Shown: positions 41,334 to 54,493 of the stretch, piece after piece
Position numbering within the stretch: position 1 is the first letter of the stretch
Layout of the letters: each line of letters starts with the position of its first letter
NCBI GenBank assembly: GCA_902569285.1
Contig: CACFTS010000001.1
Span: forward strand, 57,705-121,704
Length of the DNA stretch: 64,000 nucleotides
Reading direction: 5' to 3'
Source: an uncultured Pelagibacteraceae bacterium
GTDB taxonomy: Bacteria; Pseudomonadota; Alphaproteobacteria; Pelagibacterales; Pelagibacteraceae
Made by a program: the position numbers and the translations under genes
The notes under the pieces: generated by a model
Told to the model about the DNA's origin: nothing
Database searches by the model: none
The model's input: the letters and a program-made list of their open reading frames with translations, nothing else

Positions 41334-41361
41334 CTTGAAATAGTAAGGTCAATCTCTATAT
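41334..41361 (+). promoter_or_regulatory. Candidate RpoH (sigma32) promoter of groESL
   Basis: CTTGAAA (41334-41340), 13-nt spacer, CTCTATAT (41354-41361); compared with CTTGAAA-N13-15-CCCCATNT. Confidence 0.55.
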
Positions 41362-41388
41362 GAACTCCATATTTATAAAGGAGAATTT

Positions 41389-51840: not shown

Positions 51841-53920
51841 ATGAAAATACCACAACTTAGAAAAAAAACAGAAATTAAATCTTGTCACAATATAACTTGG
51901 GAAGACAATTATAGCTGGATACATCAAAAAAACATCTTAGAAGTTTTAAAAGATAAAAATAAGTTAGATCCAGAGGTAAAAGAATATCTAATTCAAGAAA
52001 ATAACAACACCGATTATCATTTAAAAGATACTAAAACTTTACAAAAAAAATTATTTAATGAAATAAAAGGAAGAATTAAATTAGATGATGAATCTCTACC
52101 TTATAAAGATACCCATTATGAGTATTGGACAAAAACAACAACGAAGGGAAACTACTCTATTAAATTAAGAAAAAAAATTGGAACAAATGAAACTGAAGAA
52201 ATATGGAATGGAGATAAAGAAAAAGAAAAATTAAATACAGAATATTTTGGTGTTGGAGATTTAGAGGTTAGTTTAAATGATAAATATTTAGGTTATTCTC
52301 TAGATTTAAAAGGTTCAGAATACTATACGATTTATATAAGGGATATTTCTTCAAACAAATTAATAACTGAAAAAATAGAAGAAACTAGTGGAGGAATAAC
52401 TTTTAGTTTAGATGATAAATATATTTTTTATTCAAAACTAGATAAATTTCATAGACCAAGAACAATTTATAGACATAAATTAGGAACTCCTGTCAAAGAT
52501 GATGAATTAATATTTGAAGAAAAAAGTGAAGCATTCACTGTAGGTATTGGTTTAAGTGCAGATGATAAATATTTTTTTATTTCTACATCAGATCATAACA
52601 CATCTGAGCAATATTATTTTGGAGTGAATGAAGAAAATCCAAAGCCTAAATTAATTAAAGAGAGAAAAAGAGGAATTATTTACTCAGTAAATTCTTGGGA
52701 TGGTCATTTTTACAATCACACTAATGAAAATGCTGAAGACTTTAAGATTGATAAATGCAAAGATTTATCAAATCAAAATTGGGAAGAGTATATTCCTGCA
52801 AAAAATGAAGTTTTAATTGGTGGACTATCATTTTTGAATAATTGGATGATTAGAGCTGAAACTTCTAATGCGCTAAGTAAATTATTTGTAAAAGATCTAA
52901 AAAAAGATAGAGAAGAAGAATTAATTTTTACTGATGAAAAAGTTATAGTTCCGGGAATATCTTCTACTCAAAAAAAACAAGAATACTGATTTAGTTTATT
53001 TATTTTATTCATCTCCCAAAACACCAGGAAGGGCTTACCTATATAATTTGAAAACTAAAGATAAAAAGTTAGTAAAAGAGCAAGAAATTCCCTCAGGTCA
53101 CAACCCTGATGATTATATTGTTGAAAGACTAGAATGTCCTTCTCATGATGGAAGAATGGTTCCAATAACGATAACACGACATAAAAAAACTAAAATCGAT
53201 GGGTCTGCAAACTTATTATTATATGGATATGGATCTTATGGTAATTCGATGTCCCCAACATTTTCATCAACAAGATTAAGTTTAATTGATAGAGATATTA
53301 TTTGGGTCACTGCTCATATTAGGGGTGGAATGGAAAGAGGAATGAAATGGTGGAAAGAAGGAAAGCTTCTAAATAAAAAAAATACCTTTGAAGACTATAT
53401 TGCTGTTGGTAAATATTTAATTGAAAAAAAATACACTTCTAAAGGAAAAATAATTGGAATGGGAGGTTCTGCTGGTGGATTATTAATGGGAGCAGTTGTT
53501 AATCAATCTCCTGAATTATTTTTAGGAATAATTATGACTGTGCCATTTGTCGATTCACTTACTACCAATCTTGATCACTCTTTACCATTAACTGTTGGAG
53601 AATTTGATGAATTTGGAAATGCAAAAGAAAATAAAGATCATTTTGATTATATTTATTCGTATGCACCTTATAACAATATAAAAAAAATGGATTATCCCCA
53701 CATATTAATCACAACCAGTTTGAGCGATAATAGAGTTTTATTTGATGAACCCACAAAATTTACTGCAAAATTAAGAGACTATAAAACTGATAATAATTTA
53801 TTATTATTAAAAACTGAAATGAATGCTGGTCACGGTGGAAAATCTGGAAGAGATAGTGCTATAGAAGAGATTGCACTTGATTATGCATTTGCATTAAAAA
53901 TTTCAAATCAAATTTCTTGA
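51841..53920 (+). CDS. ptrB: Oligopeptidase B (S9A prolyl oligopeptidase family), frame interrupted at the A8 tract 52970-52977
   Basis: Propeller half in ORF 51841..52989; catalytic half ORF 53048..53920 with GMGGSAGGLLMGAV and GHGGKSGR. Confidence 0.88.
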
Positions 53921-53944
53921 AAATATAAAATTAATACCCATATA
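53916..53944 (+). promoter_or_regulatory. Candidate RpoH promoter of hsp20, overlapping the ptrB stop codon
   Basis: CTTGAAA (53916-53922), ~13-14 nt spacer, ACCCATATAA (from 53936). Confidence 0.65.
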
Positions 53945-53950
53945 AGATTG

Positions 53951-54000
53951 GTAAGTCGCCTAATGGGGCTTACATAAAATAACCTTGCTAACAAAGGAGG
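53951..54000 (+). promoter_or_regulatory. ROSE-like RNA thermometer in the hsp20 5'UTR
   Basis: Hairpin 1 at 53951-53973 (9 bp, bulged G); hairpin 2 at 53983-54000 pairs CCUU(G)CU with AGGAGG, leaving a bulged G in a UUGCU motif opposite the SD. Confidence 0.65.
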
Positions 54001-54005
54001 ATATA

Positions 54006-54452
54006 ATGACAAGTAAGGATCTATCTATATTCAGCTCATTAAGACCTTTTTCGGTTGGTTTTGACGATATGTTTGACCAATTCGAAAGTATGTTGGGAAA
54101 TGGAAGTTTGAGTATGCAATCAAACTATCCGCCATATAACATAAGAAAAACTGGAAAAGACAACTACTCAATAGAGGTTGCTCTTGCTGGTTTTAACAAA
54201 AAGGATGTTGAAGTTGAGTTTGAAGACAATTTATTAACTATAAGAACAAAACAAGTTAATAAGTCTGAAGACAAAAATGAAGATGGTAAAATTCTTCATA
54301 AAGGCATTTCTCAAAGACAATTTGCTAAATCATTTACAATTGCAGATGATGTAAAAGTAGGTGGTGCAGAGCTAAAAGATGGTCTTTTGACAATAGCTTG
54401 TGAAAAAATTGTGCCAGAGTACAAAAAGAAAAAACTTATTGAAATTAAATAA
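54006..54452 (+). CDS. Small heat shock protein, Hsp20/IbpA family
   Basis: Alpha-crystallin domain: YPPYNIRKTGKDNYSIEVALAGF, LLTIRTKQ, GISQRQFAKSFTIADDVKV. Confidence 0.95.
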   Translation: MTSKDLSIFSSLRPFSVGFDDMFDQFESMLGNGSLSMQSNYPPYNIRKTGKDNYSIEVALAGFNKKDVEVEFEDNLLTIRTKQVNKSEDKNEDGKILHKGISQRQFAKSFTIADDVKVGGAELKDGLLTIACEKIVPEYKKKKLIEIK

Positions 54453-54465
54453 GTGATAAACCTTG

Positions 54466-54493
54466 CTTGTGGGGATTTCTCCCCACAAGTTTT
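54466..54493 (+). terminator. Rho-independent terminator of hsp20
   Basis: Perfect 10-bp stem CTTGTGGGGA-TTTC-TCCCCACAAG then TTTT. Confidence 0.9.

Follow-up and report, generated by a model that had tools for sequence, protein, structure and literature searches.

ROSE-type RNA thermometers lie 5' of small heat shock genes and fold into two to four hairpins, of which the 5' ones are stable and the 3'-proximal one pairs a U(U/C)GCU motif imperfectly with the Shine-Dalgarno (SD) sequence, leaving a G unpaired. Short forms are known from Pseudomonas, in which the 61-62-nt ibpA leaders, preceded by a sigma32 promoter, were shown in 2013 to be two-hairpin ROSE thermometers (PMC3669281). Melting in these leaders is confined to hairpin II, and if a single-base deletion makes the SD pairing stronger, induction is impaired and the element is locked shut (PMC3669281). 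A different kind of control has been described for icaR of S. aureus, where the 3'-UTR motif UCCCCUG meets the SD of the same mRNA (PMC3868564). Here we describe the leader of hsp20 in a SAR11 (Pelagibacteraceae) genome that is 59% complete, located in a 64,000-nt stretch of DNA, called the window below. It lies 5' of a small heat shock gene and comprises two hairpins, the 5' one stable, and its 3'-proximal hairpin holds a U(U/C)GCU motif paired imperfectly to the SD with one unpaired G. A first-pass annotation had read it as a ROSE-like thermometer behind an RpoH promoter, a reading that conservation, the form of the anti-SD and the linkage to hsp20 all support. We consider it highly likely that this is a short two-hairpin ROSE-type RNA thermometer which, together with an RpoH-type promoter, provides control at two levels.

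The positions of the features are listed in Table 1. The product of hsp20 has 148 residues and begins at the ATG at 54006; an alternative TTG start at 53985 was discarded because this ATG and the SD are conserved. The gene is present in 118 of the 151 genomes of the genus (Pelagibacter). As the first-pass annotation had pointed out, the promoter overlaps the stop codon of the upstream peptidase gene ptrB (TGA, 53918-53920), and the leader remains with hsp20 even where the upstream neighbor is a gene other than ptrB. The ptrB gene (prolyl oligopeptidase) is itself split in the window, with an N-terminal domain ORF at 51841-52989 and the catalytic domain in another frame at 53048-53920, the result of either a frameshift or an assembly error.

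Table 1. Positions of the promoter, leader, coding and 3' UTR features of the hsp20 locus in the window.
Feature	Position	Strand	Evidence or remark
Sigma32-type -35 box, CTTGAAA	53916..53922	+	TTGAA in 114/114 genus leaders (those with the hairpin I core; TTGAA was the motif the script looked for)
Sigma32-type -10 box, ACCCATATAA	53936..53945	+	13-nt spacer after -35 box
Hairpin I, stable, 5'-terminal, invariant bulged G53958	53951..53973	+	Compensatory changes; -12.6 kcal/mol at 25 C
Hairpin II, anti-SD CCUUGCU against SD AGGAGG, bulged G53987; proposed thermosensor	53983..54000	+	U(U/C)GCU and GGAG conserved in leaders
Shine-Dalgarno, AGGAGG	53995..54000	+	GGAG conserved
hsp20, small heat shock protein (alpha-crystallin domain)	54006..54452	+	Pfam PF00011, 62 bits, cut-off 20.8
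Codons 2-5 segment, CAAGTAAGG, synonymously hyperconserved	54010..54018	+	Codon conservation
3' UTR element, CCTTGCTTG, reverse complement (one G-U) of 54010-54018	54461..54469	+	Conservation, coupled change
Terminator-like hairpin, CTTGTGGGGA-TTTC-TCCCCACAAG	54466..54489	+	First four bases shared with the 3' UTR element; conserved in relatives

A covariance model built from Pelagibacter leaders alone scored 79.2 bits at the hsp20 leader, with the next best match in the source genome at 17.1 bits. Matches to this model were found in 218 of 297 genomes of the order, distributed among seven genera. Within the same family but in other genera, every one of the 27 matches examined (E < 1e-4) directly precedes hsp20. 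The same is true of all five matches with E < 1e-5 outside the family, among 289 genomes of the class, and three of the weaker matches outside the family were also located before hsp20. The model does not recognize the longer ROSE leaders. Promoter and both hairpins are kept with hsp20 across seven SAR11 genera, and they are recognizable in other families of alphaproteobacteria. Two second copies of hsp20 were observed. One, which has diverged (L116, in genome G056; 53% identity), has a hairpin I with a literal UUGCU...AGGA, so that both of its hairpins look ROSE-like, and the other, in a Pelagibacter-like genome (L117, in G128; 46% identity), is without a ROSE-like leader.

The first-pass annotation had drawn hairpin II as CCTT[G53987]CT-AACAA-AGGAGG, and we find the same structure, with the SD fully paired and G53987 bulged. 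This is not a fourU element, as the anti-SD CCUUGCU does not present four consecutive U opposite the SD. The pattern TTGCT-N3-11-AGGAGG occurs once in the window against 0.19 expected; for this pattern as for the promoter, the odds from a single sequence are weak and conservation decides. The anti-SD UUGCU is invariant among the genus leaders. Two more distant SAR11 members and two leaders from other families have UCGCU instead, and this U(U/C)GCU variation (L219, L222, L168 and L175) matches exactly the variation known in ROSE elements. Because U(U/C)GCU facing AGGAG is nearly invariant, hairpin II is conserved rather than covarying.

The limited variation within hairpin II still respects pairing, in the form of a swap at the end of the helix. 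In all 25 leaders with a CC base (CCUUGCUA) the first loop nucleotide is A and the partner position is still GG, while 80 of the 87 leaders with an AC or UC base add an inner U-A pair (CUUGCUU...AAAGGAG). AGGAGT or AGGAGA is tolerated only in AC-type leaders. In another family (L163-L165), UC stands before UUGCU and GA is found at the partner positions.

Formal membership in the Rfam ROSE family, a check that bears directly on the ROSE-like label given in the first-pass annotation, was not obtained, since the leader scored 14.5 bits with ROSE (RF00435) against a threshold of 45, and ROSE_3 (RF02523), which aligns over its full length to 53950-54011, gave 17 bits against a threshold of 43. Among the cis-regulatory Rfam models ROSE_3, so aligned, gives the best match, though far below threshold, and scanning the whole window with Rfam at the gathering threshold produced no match at the hsp20 leader. 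A search of the class with ROSE and ROSE_3 gave few matches, none above threshold and none in the source genome; at six other loci RF00435 matched over its full length immediately before hsp20, again below threshold. The loci that RF00435 picked out in other alphaproteobacteria are situated before hsp20, contain middle hairpins and have a first hairpin of the form GCC-loop-GGG with a bulged G. The SAR11 leader resembles these classical ROSE and ROSE_3 elements in its position before hsp20, in its GCC-loop-GGG first hairpin with a bulged G and in its last hairpin with the anti-SD U(U/C)GCU, and differs from the longer ROSE elements by the lack of middle hairpins and by scores far below the gathering thresholds. 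With the common first hairpin and no middle ones, it looks like a ROSE element reduced to its first and last hairpins.

There is a close likeness to the Pseudomonas ibpA elements (PMC3669281), which share the two hairpins, a leader of about 60 nt, the sigma32 promoter and the small heat shock gene, as well as the U(U/C)GCU:SD pairing in the 3' hairpin and the combination of a stable hairpin I with a weak hairpin II. The first-pass annotation was right about a two-hairpin leader of about 55 nt, while its view of this as smaller than typical ROSE elements does not define a new size class, given the 61-62 nt of Pseudomonas ibpA (PMC3669281). Unlike the Pseudomonas elements, SAR11 leaders are A+T-rich, have a conserved UYGCC-loop-GGGR with a bulged G in hairpin I too and, in the Pelagibacter group, are accompanied by an extra 3' UTR element. 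The leader thus appears to work like a short ROSE thermometer, having the sequence and structure features of ROSE but not the Rfam score.

Hairpin I, proposed in the first-pass annotation as GTAAGTC[G]CC-TAAT-GGGGCTTAC, indeed has nine pairs, including one G-U, and one bulged G (G53958). Changes on both sides were seen at six of the nine pairs in a MAFFT alignment of 101 leaders and at eight of nine in a model-guided alignment, in which 96% of cells are paired. The latter comprises 76 matches, drawn from SAR11 genera and from other families and including two chance matches of low score, and being fitted to the model it leans towards it; covariation over the whole structure in this alignment was 0.395 compared to 0.179 +/- 0.009 after shuffling. 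Covariation thus bears out hairpin I (eight of nine pairs compensatory) and is scarce in hairpin II. With the MAFFT alignment (A1) as input, RNAalifold missed the structure, a failure probably due to slippage of the AGGAGT-type leaders in that alignment.

Both loop and stem of hairpin I are conserved more strongly than masking of the SD requires, which could point to a switch that responds to protein or aggregates. In E. coli, IbpA reportedly attaches to the leader of its own mRNA and keeps translation repressed until aggregates draw it away. By this account Hsp20/IbpA would repress its own leader in SAR11 until titrated by aggregates, with the ROSE fold serving as a binding platform and temperature acting indirectly. 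Published values for Ca. P. ubique IbpA (SAR11_0181, a putative ortholog) can be read in this way: in sulfur-limited stationary phase the protein increased 3.74-fold with no significant change in mRNA (PMC5069961 Table 1). In control stationary phase the values were 7.63-fold for protein and 3.69-fold for mRNA (PMC5069961 Table 1). These data are in line with translational control of the gene, and the rise under sulfur limitation counts for the thermometer reading as well, although it fits post-transcriptional control in general and not specifically control by temperature. However, the exact ROSE anti-SD with its bulged G is conserved and explains SD masking without any protein, and we regard a protein-responsive switch as rather unlikely.

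The bases of both promoter boxes are as the first-pass annotation gave them, CTTGAAA at 53916 and ACCCATATAA at 53936. The 13-nt spacer is found in 113 of 114 leaders, and in 98 of 114 a gap of 5 nt separates the end of the -10 box from hairpin I. Since both distances are kept, hairpin I would stand at the predicted 5' end of the transcript, and this placement agrees with the transcription start that had been predicted about where hairpin I begins. Without mismatches the promoter pattern occurs once in the window; allowing up to three mismatches gives three matches against 2.3 expected, one of them being the groES promoter. This promoter (window 41334-41363) reads CTTGAAA...CTCTATATGA, on the same plan as that of hsp20, and groES of seven sister genomes likewise shows CTTGAAA ahead of a TCTATATGA-type box. 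Upstream of dnaK stands the related CTTGTAG-N13-CCCTATATGA or CACTTATATGA. The groES and dnaK upstream regions were read directly, an exact CTTGAA-CCCATNTA scan of the sister genomes being too strict. An arrangement of CTTGAAA, 13-14 nt and a CCCATATA-like box, as expected for RpoH, is shared with heat shock genes, and the likeness to groES and dnaK supports a heat shock sigma factor promoter at hsp20. RpoH was detected above cut-off in all four near-complete sister genomes and was not found in the source genome, which is 59% complete. From this we infer that hsp20 is probably transcribed with RpoH from a start at hairpin I.

By nearest-neighbor calculation, hairpin II has a folding energy of -5.5 kcal/mol at 15 C, -4.1 at 25 C and -2.4 at 37 C, and the AC-type hairpin II one of -3.4 kcal/mol at 15 C and -0.6 at 37 C. 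Removal of the bulged G would add about 4 kcal/mol to hairpin II. The minimum free energy of the leader differs from chance with z = -2.97 for 53948-54020 and z = -0.94 if the segment is extended to 54045. Partition functions give a shallow opening of hairpin II with temperature that depends strongly on the length of coding sequence included; added coding sequence brings in other pairings that compete. Because of the shallow opening and this dependence, folding predictions neither prove nor disprove temperature sensing.

We propose the following mechanism. Transcription from the RpoH-type promoter would begin right at hairpin I, which may act as a stable 5' clamp or folding aid. In the weak hairpin II, the anti-SD U(U/C)GCU would pair with AGGAGG around the single bulged G, so that the SD is hidden at growth temperature; upon warming, hairpin II would open and ribosomes could load. 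The two-hairpin leader thus probably hides the ribosome-binding site until warming, and melting within the living temperature range, temperature-dependent SD exposure and translational control would follow from this arrangement. Hairpins at the 5' end can stabilize mRNAs. As hairpin I starts at the predicted 5' end and hairpin II is weak, the leader could alternatively be an mRNA-stabilizing one in which the SD is normally accessible, its conservation reflecting mRNA stability and initiation. This would leave unexplained why U(U/C)GCU opposite the SD is invariant, why there is a bulged G and why the leader is linked to small heat shock genes across families, and we find it very improbable.

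A second conserved element was found at the other end of the gene. CCUU(G/A)CUUG occurs just 3' of the stop codon in 209 of 213 unique genus-like loci, at variable distance from the stop and with variable flanks on both sides. Its reverse complement is exactly codons 2-5 (CAAGUAAGG), in which a U lies opposite the G/A position. These codons are unusually constant: codon 3 is AGU in 134 of 134 sequences, with no change on the tree and the lowest value of 53 two-fold sites, and codon 4 is AAG in 130 of 133, though AAG makes up 26% of Lys codons. In the adjoining terminator the right arm varies (CAAG, CAGG, CGAG) while the left CUUG is constant. More distant genera are without both the codon segment and the 3' UTR element.

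Changes in the two segments are coupled. Codon changes that can still be paired by G-U (two AGG, one CGA) go with an unchanged 3' UTR, whereas the 3' UTR is changed in four of the five loci with codons that break the pairing (three AAA, one AGA, one CUA). It is changed nowhere else, all four deviants of the 213 loci being among those five (hypergeometric p = 6e-8, with tree kinship ignored). On the tree, the three lines with AAA do not group together. The change in L105 (CUUUGCUUG) restores the pairing exactly, giving -10.0 kcal/mol compared to -6.4 uncompensated, and the change in L080 restores it in part. Those in L085 and L114 do not restore it and look like joint decay. Complementarity between gene start and 3' UTR is not unusual by length, as five of 63 genes in the window have longer, A/T-rich matches; the hsp20 match has the most hydrogen bonds among the matches listed. 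In full-length folds the codon:3' UTR pairing probability is 0.12-0.16, low because the terminator stem competes.

Codons 3-5 (AGUAAGG) are also complementary to the anti-SD CCUUGCU, and the hyperconservation of codons 3-4 might instead reflect a two-state switch, as opposed to a hairpin that simply melts, in which the anti-SD pairs either with the SD (off) or with codons 3-5, never with both, the latter pairing leaving the SD free in a loop. Taken by itself, the anti-SD:codon hairpin exceeds the SD hairpin in stability by about 4 kcal/mol, and it is the dominant form in folds that end at +18. It fades as more coding sequence is folded, and this pairing is absent from another genus (g3) and from other families. 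Moreover, a change of codon 4 to AAA leaves the 5' anti-SD unchanged, whereas the 3' UTR element changes. Since it is the UTR and not the anti-SD that changes with the codons, we judge the two-state switch less likely than codon:3' UTR pairing, and improbable overall.

The coupled change suggests a long-range contact between start and tail of the hsp20 mRNA. One possibility, which we rate as slightly short of even, is that the hsp20 mRNA of Pelagibacter and the nearest genera is locked twice: the ROSE hairpin would hide the SD, and the 9-nt 3' tag CCUURCUUG would pair over about 440 nt with codons 2-5, so that the mRNA would form a loop, the site where ribosomes land would be covered and the terminator stem would have a competitor. 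We give a genuine RNA contact between start and tail that also has a regulatory role somewhat less than an even chance, because the coupled change is strong, yet one case alone restores pairing. By analogy, repression of initiation as in S. aureus icaR would be the nearest known idea, as there too a short 3' UTR motif is complementary to sequence around the translation start of its own mRNA (PMC3868564). The likeness is one of working and does not imply kinship, and in contrast to the icaR motif, which meets the SD, SAR11 CCUURCUUG would face codons 2-5 and shares bases with the terminator stem.

For SAR11 HIMB5, the survey of Stav et al. (2019) reports a "possible RNA thermometer", for which the main text gives neither gene nor structure (PMC6429828). 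HIMB5 is from the same clade and this may perhaps be the hsp20 leader element, so that priority is uncertain. Neither heat shock genes nor thermometers come up in the main text of a 2009 Ca. P. ubique survey. We found no detailed description of a SAR11 RNA thermometer in the literature searched. Judged by its sequence, the hsp20 leader is a widespread SAR11 variant of the known ROSE type. SAR11 cells have very few protein regulators, and riboswitches are well known in them. An order-wide hsp20 thermometer, if true, would tie heat tolerance of a highly abundant ocean bacterium to a 55-nt RNA, and natural variants of the leader would allow asking whether melting points track ocean temperature. 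Compared to the thermometer, the start-to-tail coupling is the less expected part; if true, pairing of the 3' tag with the start would add a rare example, uncovered through coupled evolution, of bacterial control that links the start of an mRNA to its tail over a long range. Elsewhere in the window, a bablM sRNA (Rfam RF01784) was detected at 608-676 with 75.7 bits, the sole above-threshold Rfam match in the window.
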